DNA from: a virus
Reading direction: 5' to 3' (one strand)
Virus record (IMG/VR): IMGVR_UViG_3300044825_004024
Coordinates: 1-38,827 of that record
Length of the DNA: 38,827 nucleotides
Numbering within the stretch: the first letter of the stretch is position 1; every line of letters starts with the position of its first letter. A program made the position numbers and the translations under genes. The notes below the pieces were generated by a model that had not been told where the DNA came from, ran no database searches, and saw only the letters and a program-made list of their open reading frames with translations. Shown in pieces: positions 6,702-10,439 of this stretch.

Positions 6702-6726
6702 AAAAAAAACCGCCCGGTGGGCGGTT
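6702..6726 (-). terminator. Rho-independent terminator closing the repressor/accessory transcript
   Basis: On the minus strand AACCGCCC-ACC-GGGCGGTT (8-base perfect stem, 6708-6726) is followed by a run of eight T (6702-6709 as A on the plus strand, partly in the stem). It lies about 90 bases after the HEPN-like gene and before PL, so the repressor transcript ends before the PL operon. Confidence 0.88.
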
Positions 6727-6814: not shown

Positions 6815-7174
6815 TTATGCCGCGGGCGGCATGGCCTTCAGGGACTGGAGTACCCGCCTGGCAGAGGACAGTGCTTTCAGTCCGTCGCTTTGATTAAGGT
6901 CGTAGTCGGGCTCGTAGTCGGCCTTCTCGCGCAGACTGCGAAGAAGTCGTAGGCTGTCTGAAACCAAGGTGTCGCCGGCAGCCATGTAAGCATCAATCAC
7001 GCGCTGATGGCCACTTTGGCCCTTGGTCCTAAGTTGTGGATTGGCATCACGTGCCACGATCAGGGCACCGTAATAGGCCCGCGAGATCAAGGTGCGCAGC
7101 GGCGCGCCGTCCTGTCGCGCCTGCAGGTGCAAGCCCTGGGCCAGGGTGTAGAACTCTGCCGGTGAAAACGCCAT
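6815..7174 (-). CDS. HEPN (UPF0332-like) domain protein
   Basis: 119 residues, all helical. SRAYYGALIVARDANPQL (from about residue 31), HQRVIDAYMAAGD and LRSLREKADYEPDYDL reproduce the SRxYYAxxxAA ... R-x-x-ADY pattern of HEPN proteins of the UPF0332 type. Many HEPN proteins are ribonucleases or nucleic-acid-binding halves of toxin-antitoxin and defence systems; the R-x-x-ADY segment sits where the catalytic RxxxxH would be in nuclease members, so RNase activity is not assured. It is the last gene of the accessory cassette behind the repressor, 6 bases after the stop of the 7181-7717 gene, and just before a strong terminator. An immunity or exclusion role is inferred from position. Confidence 0.72.
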   Translation of the reverse strand: MAFSPAEFYTLAQGLHLQARQDGAPLRTLISRAYYGALIVARDANPQLRTKGQSGHQRVIDAYMAAGDTLVSDSLRLLRSLREKADYEPDYDLNQSDGLKALSSARRVLQSLKAMPPAA

Positions 7175-7180
7175 GCCAAC

Positions 7181-7717
7181 TCACATTACAGAGATGACCA
7201 GGTAGCGCTTGGCCTCCGCCAGTCGGCCGTCCGCCGCAATGGTGGACCGCAGTGCGGTCTCATGCCGCAGCTGCTCATCGAAGTCCATGCCGTGCGTGTC
7301 CAATGACAGGAACAGGGCCGGGCCGGTCTCTTCCTGCTCGATACTGATGCATACGCTCAGCCGGCTGGCGGCCTGGAAAGCTTTCACCGCCAAATCGTAG
7401 ATGCCCTGAACCGCGACCAGGTCGGCGGCCGGGAACTGCAGCCGAAACTGGTTGACGCTGGCGTGATTCATGATGTTGTAGCCGATGGGGCTGGCCACAT
7501 TATCCTGCGCCGCTATGGCGGCCGGCAAGGCGCCTAGGCTCTGGTAGCCCTGCGTCGTCGGGGGTTGCCAGGCCCAATCGTTGGCGGGATGGACGCCGGG
7601 CCACCCTATGGCCAAACTGCCGGCCAGCATGGCCGCCGTGGTGGCGCCCGACCCAAAGCCTTGCCGGCCGAAGCTGCGCGCCGTGTACGTGGGCTGGGAA
7701 TAGGTCTGGGTGCTCAT
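7181..7717 (-). CDS. Unknown protein of the accessory cassette, between TIGR04255-like and HEPN genes
   Basis: 178 residues. The first 50 are low-complexity and Gly/Ser/Thr-rich, with one weakly hydrophobic stretch (GATTAAMLAGSLAIGWPGV), and could be a flexible or membrane-associated lead. The rest looks like a mixed fold ending in LFLSLDTHGMDFDEQLRHE ... AKRYLVISV. I do not recognise the family. Its ATG overlaps the end of the upstream TIGR04255-like gene by 4 bases, and the HEPN-like gene starts 6 bases after its stop, so the three are very likely translated together as a module. Confidence 0.68.
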   Translation of the reverse strand: MSTQTYSQPTYTARSFGRQGFGSGATTAAMLAGSLAIGWPGVHPANDWAWQPPTTQGYQSLGALPAAIAAQDNVASPIGYNIMNHASVNQFRLQFPAADLVAVQGIYDLAVKAFQAASRLSVCISIEQEETGPALFLSLDTHGMDFDEQLRHETALRSTIAADGRLAEAKRYLVISVM

Positions 7718-8517
7718 GACGCCACTCGCATGCCGATTTCGGCCTGCTTCTGGTCGGTCAGCAGCTCGCGCAGCAGGGTCATGTTGCTGTCGTGCAGCTG
7801 GCGGAACACACCGTCCAGCAGGTCCAGGTTGTCCAGGCCAAAAGCGATGCCGCCATCCAGGCTGGCCACAATTCGGTGGTCAATCACCGTCGCGTAGCGC
7901 GAGCGATCGTCCATCCGCAGGTTGCTGATGTTGACCTGGTTCAGGTACTTGAAGGCGCCACCCGGCCGCTCGAACCAGCCCTGGTACACATGCCACAGCA
8001 GGCCGCTGTGCCAGGCCTTGGCCGTCAGGTACGGCGTGTCGGCGCGGAACAGCTCGCCCAGGCTGTAGCGGGGCTCGTCTTCGGGCTGCAGGTCGTAGTT
8101 GAACTGGTCCAGCACCTGGTGCACCAGCTCCAGGCACGCGAAGCCATCATTCAGCTGCGTCAGCACCAGTCGCAGGTAGCGTCTTGCCTGCTCCCAGACG
8201 GCCGAGAAGTCGGTGTAGTCATGGCAGGTGACGGTGATCGTCGCGCCTTGTACCTGCACCCGCCACAGATGTGCCCCGTTCGGGCGGGCGACGAAGCGGG
8301 TCAGCTCGTGCAATGCGGGCATGGGATGCTGCAAGGCGCCAAGCTGGAACCCAAACCCCTGGCCCATTTGCTGGCCGGGCAGCTCATCGCCCAGCGCATC
8401 GAACGCGGCATTGATGCGCTGCAGGGCGGGCAGCTCGATCGGCTGGGCTAGTTGCAGAGAAAAGACCGCAGCTTCGATCGCATTGCGATGTTGCGACGGC
8501 GTTGAAACGGGATGCAT
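7714..8517 (-). CDS. TIGR04255-family-like protein
   Basis: 267 residues from ATG 8515-8517, with AAAGGA 7 bases upstream. The start NAIEAAVFSLQL ... ALGDELPG, the central strand-rich part (VQGATITVTCHDYTDFSAVWEQARRYL) and KYLNQVNISNL follow the layout of the sporadically distributed TIGR04255 family, whose function is unknown and which often sits in accessory or mobile loci. A 121-base gap separates it from the BRCT gene upstream, so a separate promoter is possible, although I see no convincing -35/-10 pair. It is the first gene of a tight three-gene unit with 7181-7717 and the HEPN-like gene. The family call is by pattern only. Confidence 0.6.
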   Translation of the reverse strand: MHPVSTPSQHRNAIEAAVFSLQLAQPIELPALQRINAAFDALGDELPGQQMGQGFGFQLGALQHPMPALHELTRFVARPNGAHLWRVQVQGATITVTCHDYTDFSAVWEQARRYLRLVLTQLNDGFACLELVHQVLDQFNYDLQPEDEPRYSLGELFRADTPYLTAKAWHSGLLWHVYQGWFERPGGAFKYLNQVNISNLRMDDRSRYATVIDHRIVASLDGGIAFGLDNLDLLDGVFRQLHDSNMTLLRELLTDQKQAEIGMRVAS

Positions 8518-8638
8518 GAAAAAATCCTTTACAGCTTGCCACCTATTTTGAAGTATGCAGCCAGTGATGGTGACAGGTGGAGCGTTTTGAAACAAGCATT
8601 CATCTAGATGCTCACCCGCGCCGGCGGAACTCCTGATG

Positions 8639-9280
8639 CTACAGATTGGCGCCTGTTTCAGACTGAAAGTTCCGCAGCGCCTCTGCCCAAGCATCCTCAT
8701 GCACGATCCGCACCTTGGCCCCTTCGCGCTGCAGCTCCACGGCGCGCTCGACCTTGGTGCCAAAGCCGCCGTGTTTCCATTCCTTGCTGCCCAGGCCGCC
8801 TACCACCACGAAGTCGACCTTCTTGCTCACGTTGGGCTTGATCTGACCACCGCGCCGTGTGATGGCATCCTGGCAAGTCTCGCGTGGGCCGAACACGAAA
8901 TCGCCCGTCAGGCAGAACACCCGGCCGTCAAACCGGATGTCCTCGCCTTCGTCCATCGCCAGCTGGGTGACCATGGGCGACTCGGCCAGATCATCCAGCC
9001 TGCCACCCACCAGCTCCTGCAAGGTGCTGACCAGGTGATCCCGTTCAGTTTCGGTGATGCAGCCATCGCGCAGCACTTCCTCAACCTGCTCGCGCAAGAC
9101 GTCGCCCGGCCAGCAACTGGACAAGGCTTCATTGTTCGCCAGCCAGTCGCGCAGGAACCGGATCTCGCTGTCCTGCAGCTGGCCATCGGACAGCAGGCCC
9201 TGGGCGATGCCGAGCAGGACGGCGCAGGACCCTTTCAGCTCGTTGGCAACAGCAATGTGGTGGCGTGCAAAAGGGTTCAC
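8639..9280 (-). CDS. TerB-like / BRCT domain protein
   Basis: 213 residues. The N-terminal half (AVLLGIAQGLLSDGQLQDSEIRFLRDWL ...) resembles the all-helical TerB-like repeat, with its LxxDGxLxxxE pattern. The C-terminal half (about residues 118-205: FCLTGDFVFGPRETCQDAITRRGG ... DFVVVGGLGSKEWKHGGFGTKVERAVEL ... IVHEDAW) is a BRCT domain like that at the end of bacterial DNA ligase LigA, with the conserved FCLTG, GG and final W. BRCT domains bind nicked or broken DNA ends or phosphoprotein. No ligase catalytic domain is present. It overlaps the gene at 9277-9660 by 4 bases and is part of the repressor transcript. Confidence 0.82.
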   Translation of the reverse strand: MNPFARHHIAVANELKGSCAVLLGIAQGLLSDGQLQDSEIRFLRDWLANNEALSSCWPGDVLREQVEEVLRDGCITETERDHLVSTLQELVGGRLDDLAESPMVTQLAMDEGEDIRFDGRVFCLTGDFVFGPRETCQDAITRRGGQIKPNVSKKVDFVVVGGLGSKEWKHGGFGTKVERAVELQREGAKVRIVHEDAWAEALRNFQSETGANL

Positions 9281-9660
9281 GATTGCTCCGTTTCGGCTTG
9301 TGCAAACAGTTTCTTGATGTCCAGAGTGAAGGTGACAGGCACGCCGGTCCGCCGGCAGATCATCACGGGTTCGGCATCGGTGTCGAGCTGCAGGTCTTCA
9401 TTCCGCAGGCCCTGCCACATGGCAACATACTGCAAGGCACCGATCTTGTTGCGGGTCTTGATAGCACGCTCAACCCCGCCGCGATAGGGCAGTACCGGCA
9501 GCTCCCCGGCTTGGGCACGGGCGGCAATTCCAGGGTGTGCCTTGGCGTAGCTGAGGCCGGCAATCCAGGCATTGATCAGTCCGTGATCCGGCCCCTTGAG
9601 GCGCCGGTCGTAATCGTGCTCGTAGGCAGGCGGGTGGTTGACGCTGGCTTGTATCAGCAT
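9277..9660 (-). CDS. Unknown protein directly downstream of the repressor
   Basis: 127 residues (MLIQASVNHPPAYEHDYDRR ...). Soluble, alpha/beta-looking, with no metal or nucleotide motif that I can see; the C-terminus (VTFTLDIKKLFAQAETEQS) is helical. The gene starts 16 bases after the repressor stop and overlaps the BRCT gene by 4 bases, so it is co-transcribed with the repressor and co-translated with the BRCT protein. Pairing with a BRCT protein suggests a small partner. Family not recognised. Confidence 0.62.
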   Translation of the reverse strand: MLIQASVNHPPAYEHDYDRRLKGPDHGLINAWIAGLSYAKAHPGIAARAQAGELPVLPYRGGVERAIKTRNKIGALQYVAMWQGLRNEDLQLDTDAEPVMICRRTGVPVTFTLDIKKLFAQAETEQS

Positions 9661-9676: not shown

Positions 9677-10411
9677 TCAGTAGCCCTTGACCGACATCCA
9701 CGCCCGCACCCGGCCGCAGATGGTCAGCTCCTCTTCGCGGGCCAGTGCCGGCTTGTGGCGCTCGTTGTCCGACAGGATCTGGATGCGCTGGGTGGCAAAG
9801 TCGGCCGACAGCCGCTTGATCAGGAGCGTGTGGTTGAACACCAGGACATAGACACCTTCGCCCTCGAAGTGGTTGCAGCTGGTGTCGACGAAGGCCAGGT
9901 CGCCATCGTTGATGGTCGGGCTCATGGAATCGCCCTTGACCGGCAGCGCGCGGATGCGGTCAAGCCTATCGCCCAGTCGCTTGCGCGCCCATTGCTCGGC
10001 CAGGTCGATGTGGCCCAGCACGGCGGCGTAGTCAGCCGGCTCGCGGCCAGGGCCAGCCGAGGCAGCCAGTTCCAAGACGGGAAAGCGGACATTGCCGGCG
10101 CTTGGCTGGGCTGCTGGATCAACACGCTGGGTATGAACGCCATGAGTGGCGGCATGCACTTGGTCACTTCTTGGCGGGTTGTCCATCCAGCCACGTGTCA
10201 GTCCTAACTTTTCCTCGATCTCACGGGCCATCGCATCACCCATTTGGTAGATCGCTTCTCCCCTGCCTGGGCGCTTGTTGGCGTTCTTGATCTGGCTGAG
10301 CTTTGGATCGGTTCGTGCCCAGCCCAGTGCCACGTTCAAGTCAGCTATAGCCCCTTGCTGCTCGATGAGGCGCTCGAGGTTTTCTCGCCGGATTTCTGCA
10401 CTTGTTTTCAT
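9677..10411 (-). CDS. CI/LexA-like phage repressor (S24 self-cleaving)
   Basis: 244 residues from ATG 10409-10411 (the longer frame to 10432 has no support). Residues 1-75 form the DNA-binding part (RRENLERLIEQQG ... LGLTRGWMDN). A linker leads to the S24 peptidase domain with a likely Ala119-Gly120 cleavage point (AASAGPG), the nucleophile Ser162 in VKGDSMSPTINDGDLAFVD, and the base Lys199 in LLIKRLS. This is the layout of RecA-triggered autoproteolysis, so SOS induction is expected. An operator at 10425-10439 lies 14 bases before its start and indicates autoregulation. Five accessory genes follow on the same strand. Confidence 0.93.
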   Translation of the reverse strand: MKTSAEIRRENLERLIEQQGAIADLNVALGWARTDPKLSQIKNANKRPGRGEAIYQMGDAMAREIEEKLGLTRGWMDNPPRSDQVHAATHGVHTQRVDPAAQPSAGNVRFPVLELAASAGPGREPADYAAVLGHIDLAEQWARKRLGDRLDRIRALPVKGDSMSPTINDGDLAFVDTSCNHFEGEGVYVLVFNHTLLIKRLSADFATQRIQILSDNERHKPALAREEELTICGRVRAWMSVKGY

Positions 10412-10424
10412 CAAGCCAAGTAAA

Positions 10425-10439
10425 ACAGCCAAAGGCTAA
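10425..10439. promoter_or_regulatory. Repressor operator OR3-like (ACAGCCAAAGGCTAA)
   Basis: Matches 12 of 15 positions of the operator consensus. It lies between the repressor start and PR and is centred 48 bases (two 24-base steps) from the PR operator. Its place just before the repressor start codon fits autoregulation. A weaker site (TTCGCAAAAGGCGAT, 10448-10462, 10 of 15) lies midway. Confidence 0.6.

Follow-up and report, generated by a model that had tools for sequence, protein, structure and literature searches.

In TAC systems, such as HigBA1-SecB-TA of M. tuberculosis, a SecB-like chaperone protects the antitoxin via a C-terminal addiction domain (ChAD), which can be grafted onto other antitoxins and also functions at the N terminus of test proteins (PMC5105189). 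In CmdTAC, a phage capsid protein draws the chaperone off, and degradation of the antitoxin by ClpP then releases the toxin (PMC11618068). In retron-Kva2 (type IX), the effector is a HEPN protein that degrades tRNA. It carries no canonical motif; H64 and R122 converge in the dimer, and the H64A, R122A, and Y40-42A mutations each abolish defence (PMC13405049).

Here, we compare with these systems a three-gene module from the IMG/VR virus record IMGVR_UViG_3300044825_004024, whose 38,827 bases were analysed as a whole and are referred to as the window. The sequence evidence makes it highly likely that the module is a tripartite toxin-antitoxin system. As in type II toxin-antitoxin systems, the putative toxin and antitoxin genes are adjacent in one operon, the overlaps or short gaps between them are conserved, and known toxins occupy the third position in relatives. 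As in TAC, the operon has three genes and the type II toxins are swappable; however, TAC toxins belong to the HigB, HicA, and MqsR families, while the cassettes described below also carry HEPN, MazF, PIN, YhaV, and zeta proteins. In further contrast to TAC, the third protein is a member of the TIGR04255 family without detectable SecB similarity, and the gene order is third protein, antitoxin, toxin.

The three open reading frames, genes 1 to 3, form one unit on the minus strand (Table 1). Genes 1 and 2 overlap by four bases (ATGA), and genes 2 and 3 are separated by a 6-base gap, exactly as the first-pass annotation had reported. The mechanical call of gene 1 extends to a TTG at 8763; the ATG at 8517 is the start that has an AAGGA Shine-Dalgarno sequence. 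The same annotation had placed the unit in the immunity region, on the repressor strand, and had it end at a strong terminator just before PL. Both statements held: an S24-type repressor gene lies upstream on the same strand, and a strong intrinsic terminator (AACCGCCC-ACC-GGGCGGTT-T6) follows about 90 bp past gene 3. Beyond it, a promoter-like TTGACT-17-AATACT at 6579-6551 on the minus strand is consistent with the claimed PL. We found no promoter-like site in the 8518-8638 interval directly upstream of gene 1, and the repressor gene region is the probable source of the lysogenic transcription of the module. In lambda, rexAB likewise follows the repressor gene and lies on the lysogenic strand; no rex-like match was found in Pfam or PHROGs.

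Table 1. Features of the three-gene module and its surroundings in the window.
Feature	Position	Strand	Basis
Gene 1, member of the TIGR04255 family (267 aa), candidate antitoxin-guard/regulatory subunit	7714..8517	-	NCBIfam TIGR04255 and AlphaFold2
Gene 2, putative composite antitoxin, 178 aa	7181..7717	-	Position, overlap with gene 1; pattern in relatives
N-terminal segment of gene 2 (residues 1-79), predicted to be disordered, may depend on TIGR04255	7481..7717	-	AlphaFold2 pLDDT <50
C-terminal folded domain of gene 2 (residues 80-178), candidate for neutralising HEPN	7184..7480	-	AlphaFold2 block means 78-94
Gene 3, predicted HEPN RNase toxin, 119 aa, pI 9.4	6815..7174	-	Profile of 10 relatives against PDB
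Codons Y34-Y35, matching substrate-positioning Tyr Y40-42 of retron-Kva2 HEPN	7070..7075	-	Alignments; PMC13405049
Codon H56, matching catalytic H64 of retron-Kva2 HEPN	7007..7009	-	Alignments; PMC13405049
Codon R82, matching catalytic R122 of retron-Kva2 HEPN	6929..6931	-	Alignments; PMC13405049
Gene 1 Shine-Dalgarno AAGGA	8525..8529	-	Read from sequence
Intrinsic terminator closing the operon	6708..6726	-	Terminator scan
S24-type (CI/LexA-like) repressor, upstream, same strand	9677..10432	-	Pfam Peptidase_S24 E=1.1e-17

Two further minus-strand genes lie between the repressor and the module. One (9277-9660) encodes a 127-aa protein that matched nothing in any library searched. The other (8639-9280) encodes a BRCT-domain protein (phrog_3989, E=9e-67; PADLOC PDC-S48, E=2.8e-7), which is missing at the corresponding place in prophage L001 and is possibly another lysogenic accessory or defence gene. 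No near relative of the window DNA was found among phages, and no close homologues of its proteins were found in annotated phages and plasmids. Within the module, PADLOC returned HEPN matches only, which were weak, and has no model matching gene 1 or gene 2. The gene 1 product (pI 5.6) and the putative antitoxin are acidic, and the putative toxin is basic.

The identity of gene 1 as a TIGR04255-like protein, suggested by the earlier annotation, was confirmed by the NCBIfam model: residues 11-260 match positions 4-250 of 252 with 38.2 bits (curated cut-off 30; E=1.3e-9). Loci L001, L006, L007, L009, L037, L045, L054, L058, L094, and L105 and a plasmid of Thermus brockianus carry the trio with its gene order unchanged, so that the possibility that the homologues never co-occur, raised in the first-pass annotation, was overturned. 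In prophage L001, all three genes are present (88, 88, and 74% identity), with gene 1 placed 11 bp after that prophage's own repressor gene. More distant trios keep the tight spacing in Hydrogenophaga (L006), Paraburkholderia (L007), Desulforhopalus (L009), and more genomes of Pseudomonadota and Desulfobacterota. The Thermus plasmid (Deinococcota, the third phylum) has TIGR04255 and a gene 2, and its HEPN gene, which the family profile detects at 4.7e-29, lies where no gene is listed. Because phage-type integrase genes, recognised from their translations, lie within a few kilobases in L006 and L009, carriage by mobile elements is likely.

The three genes are thus almost certainly a functional unit. 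The weak match of gene 3 alone to Pfam could be read as a sign that three unrelated accessory genes have come together by chance. This reading is refuted by the conserved co-occurrence of the trio, which is found in at least nine other loci from three phyla, with 4-bp overlaps, and it also disagrees with the non-random distribution of partners on the TIGR04255 tree; we regard it as extremely improbable.

Gene 3 on its own matches Pfam HEPN below the cut-off (E=0.03), while the best relative reaches 7.2e-7. A profile built from 10 relatives matched solved HEPN structures, including 9xbd (1.4e-10), the retron-Kva2 HEPN (2.5e-4), and the UPF0332 protein AF0298 (2hsb, 1.5e-3), in agreement with the HEPN (UPF0332-like) assignment made at first pass. 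The canonical HEPN Rx4-6H motif was sought and is absent, as the invariant R82-x3-D86-Y87 contains no histidine and the invariant histidine is H56. The residues invariant in all ten proteins are Y34-Y35, H56, R82, D86, and Y87. Like the retron-Kva2 effector, gene 3 thus lacks Rx4-6H and has the same split site of His, Arg, and Tyr, a correspondence of residue identity only (Table 1; the retron numbering was checked by counting in the alignment). Because these residues match those needed for defence in retron-Kva2, we predict that the gene 3 product is active as an RNase and consider it likely to serve as the toxin; by analogy with the retron, tRNA may be its target. The two systems differ in how HEPN is held, which in retron-Kva2 is by a reverse transcriptase-msDNA-winged-helix complex rather than by an antitoxin and TIGR04255. 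HEPN/MNT systems (type VII, HepT/MntA) also pair a HEPN toxin with a protein partner; however, gene 2 gave no match to the MNT nucleotidyltransferase in Pfam, NCBIfam, or PHROG, and gene 3 lacks the RX4HXY motif.

HEPN relatives are also found without TIGR04255 (L106-L108, L110-L115, L130-L132, L003, and L004), where they pair with a 220-300 aa protein of TPR-like helical repeats, in L003 and L004 among phage tail genes. This looks like another HEPN-partner system. A C-terminal domain common to gene 2 and these TPR-like partners was suspected on inspection, but comparison of profiles gave it no support (probability 1.3%).

TIGR04255 was found in 30 of 398 genomes drawn by phylum, 23 of 297 in a second phylum draw, and 35 of 369 drawn by class, that is, in about 8-9% of the genomes drawn. 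We analysed the neighbourhoods of 93 distinct loci, with a spacing limit of about 70 bp. A same-strand gene 2 follows in 84 of them and a gene 3 in 74; an overlap of exactly 4 bp is more frequent than any other junction (31 loci). Eight loci away from contig ends have no gene 2 in range, and others have no gene 3. Pfam scanning of 62 gene 3 proteins identified PIN (4), PemK/MazF (2), DUF7689 (3), YhaV (E=6.8e-46), HicA (2, the best at 1.9e-4; one displayed in full falls below the cut-off), and HEPN (3 at E<=0.01, with 6 of the 10 proteins in the HEPN set matching at E<=1). On a Vibrio plasmid, an annotated zeta toxin occupies the gene 3 position, and the gene 3 clusters also include several unnamed families. 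All named families are toxins except DUF7689, a family without known function. As a control, among the 59 nearest genes upstream of TIGR04255, no Pfam family was found twice. One gene 2 weakly matches PrlF, the YhaV antitoxin family (E=0.0058). On the TIGR04255 tree, the toxin classes cluster yet switch (27 changes against a minimum of 10), with HEPN on at least four separate clades. Going beyond the earlier annotation, the middle gene reads as an antitoxin, and TIGR04255 heads cassettes that are not limited to HEPN.

This arrangement resembles the hyperpromiscuous Panacea (DUF4065) antitoxins, in which one domain is common to many toxin families; in contrast to Panacea, the common part here would be a separate first gene together with the antitoxin N-segment, and DUF4065 matched neither gene 1, gene 2, nor any of 40 gene 2 proteins. 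Large recurring gene 2/gene 3 pairs behind TIGR04255 (clusters B1, B2, HTH, and CDMS; for example, L016, L025, L019, and L020) are probably unrecognised antitoxin-toxin families. DUF7689 cassettes also occur without TIGR04255 (L135, 317-1448; L136, 608-1442; both numbered in the orientation that puts DUF7689 on the plus strand). Their first gene is a different one (225 and 115 aa) and their gene 2 begins with a different N terminus, which suggests that other proteins can replace TIGR04255. No two-gene standalone DUF7689 or MazF antitoxins were found on plasmids. In the open literature, no paper found names TIGR04255, and no tripartite HEPN or three-component system of this form appeared among the titles and abstracts returned; subscription papers lay outside this search.

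Gene 2 gave no match in Pfam, NCBIfam, PHROGs, or PADLOC, and Foldseek of its model returned weak OsmC/Ohr-like matches only, none below 1e-3. Its predicted division into a disordered N-terminal half and a folded C-terminal half (Table 1) is the build expected of an antitoxin with a toxin-binding C terminus and an N terminus that answers to gene 1. The clearest view of the two parts comes from loci L048 and L050, whose TIGR04255 proteins are closely similar (score ratio 0.88). Their DNA is alike (74%) from 88 bp before TIGR04255 to base 2481, a point some 80 codons after the start of gene 2; beyond it, the antitoxin ends differ and so do the toxins (a 223-aa protein versus MazF). We then compared all labelled pairs of loci. 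Where the toxin class is shared and TIGR04255 is unrelated, gene 2 proteins resemble each other over their last 60 residues (mean z 1.97 versus 0.07, MWU p=1e-14) but not over their first 60 (mean z 0.08). For different toxins with similar TIGR04255, the first 60 residues gave a mean z of 1.03 versus 0.07 (p=3e-4) without L048/L050, and this N-segment effect is modest once the two loci are left out. Because the pairs are not independent, the p values serve as guides only. The C-segments of HEPN-class antitoxins are alike across unrelated TIGR04255 clades.

Thus, gene 2 of this family is made of two pieces, an N terminus that tracks TIGR04255 and a C terminus that tracks the toxin class. We consider the C terminus a likely HEPN antitoxin, and TIGR04255 would, on balance, be expected to act through the N terminus. 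In TAC, too, the antitoxin has an additional segment that folds poorly and is linked to the third protein (PMC5105189, PMC11618068); in contrast to the C-terminal ChAD, the variable, disordered segment is N-terminal here.

A hydrophobic N-terminal segment at or above threshold was found in 14 of 78 gene 2 proteins, as compared to 1 of 69 gene 3 and 3 of 93 TIGR04255 proteins (Fisher p=7e-4 and 2e-3). It was rejected as a general property of gene 2, as only a minority have one and it is weak in the window. The second genes with such a short stretch include L013, L029, L031, L041, L048, L060, and L073, as well as L077, L079, L087, L088, L094, and L095; it is present near the N terminus of antitoxins of unrelated classes and resembles a signal or degron segment.

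The gene 1 product was modelled with AlphaFold2 from six sequences as two b-a-b-b-b-a halves (pLDDT 75, pTM 0.78). SecB homology was considered and rejected: Pfam SecB is absent in 25 TIGR04255 members, and SecB is not among the 50 best Foldseek matches. The protein resembles no known chaperone, and sequence searching of the PDB found no relatives of TIGR04255. In Foldseek, TATA-binding proteins rank first (E=4e-4 to 1e-3), but the fold match is loose, as the TM-scores against the query are only 0.23-0.30. These matches would fit a tripartite system with TIGR04255 acting chiefly as a transcriptional co-repressor: together with the antitoxin N terminus, its TBP-like fold would bind the operator and autoregulate the operon, and gene 2 alone would control the toxin; the 88 bp of upstream DNA within the conserved block of L048 and L050 could be such an operator. 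Apart from the low TM-scores, this is at odds with the acidic pI of gene 1, with the little room for an operator of its own that the 11-bp distance to the repressor leaves in L001, and with the lack of a promoter-like site between 8518 and 8638 in the window, and we judge it rather unlikely. Further down the Foldseek ranking, many of the matches are to ligand-binding proteins of the helix-grip type, among them PYL and START-like proteins. TIGR04255 might then sense a ligand or a phage protein directly in a helix-grip-like pocket, ligand binding releasing the toxin with no chaperone-like guard involved. Here too, the TM-scores are low and a conserved pocket was not identified; nothing at the sequence level tells a sensor from a guard, and we consider this quite an unlikely role. 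The swap pattern in gene 2 is what an addiction segment like that of TAC would leave behind, and for this reason we prefer the guard model. We lean slightly toward TIGR04255 being a guard or chaperone rather than a co-repressor.

The explanation that best covers these results, and that we find reasonably likely as a whole, combines a HEPN toxin, an antitoxin encoded by gene 2, and a TIGR04255 guard in a phage-triggered exclusion system. In the lysogen, transcription of the repressor strand would express the module. The HEPN ribonuclease, probably a dimer, would cut tRNA or other cellular RNA via its split site, and the folded C-terminal half of gene 2 would bind and block it. The disordered N-terminal half would make the antitoxin dependent on gene 1, as TIGR04255 would bind it and keep the antitoxin folded or shielded from proteases. 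An infecting phage, or loss of the prophage, would disturb this contact; loss of the antitoxin would then free HEPN and arrest growth, thereby excluding a second phage. The sequences themselves establish that the trio is conserved, that TIGR04255 stands first in cassettes with various known toxin families, that gene 2 of the family has two parts, and that the HEPN active-site residues are retained. We infer the TIGR04255-antitoxin binding, the protection from proteolysis, the triggering by phage, and the RNA target.

Expression from the repressor strand suggests superinfection exclusion, and for an anti-phage role of the module we see the chances as even. The same tripartite logic could instead serve addiction or prophage maintenance with no anti-phage role. 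The cassettes are carried by plasmids and prophages and lie beside integrases (L006 and L009), as addiction modules do, and PADLOC has no model for the first two genes. However, a place in the immunity operon of the lysogen, closed by a terminator of its own, suits exclusion genes, and SecB-type TAC and HEPN systems that resemble the module in layout or active site have anti-phage activity (PMC11618068, PMC13405049). We therefore consider pure addiction unlikely.

Together, these data suggest that TIGR04255, a family without known function, is a shared control subunit of modular toxin-antitoxin systems. There is perhaps an even chance that it represents a new, widespread class of antitoxin guards unrelated to SecB, whose partner segment, the antitoxin N terminus, evolution has attached to toxin-antitoxin pairs of unrelated kinds (HEPN, MazF, PIN, YhaV, HicA, zeta, and several without a name); phage or stress would then probably be their trigger. 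If so, TIGR04255 would be a second, independently evolved chaperone-addiction system, suggesting that control of antitoxins by a third protein has arisen more than once. The exchange point of L048 and L050 marks the gene 2 segment of interest for experiment. Viewing TIGR04255 as a shared first gene gives this "sporadic" family a testable role and links the unnamed second and third genes of its cassettes to probable new antitoxins and toxins.
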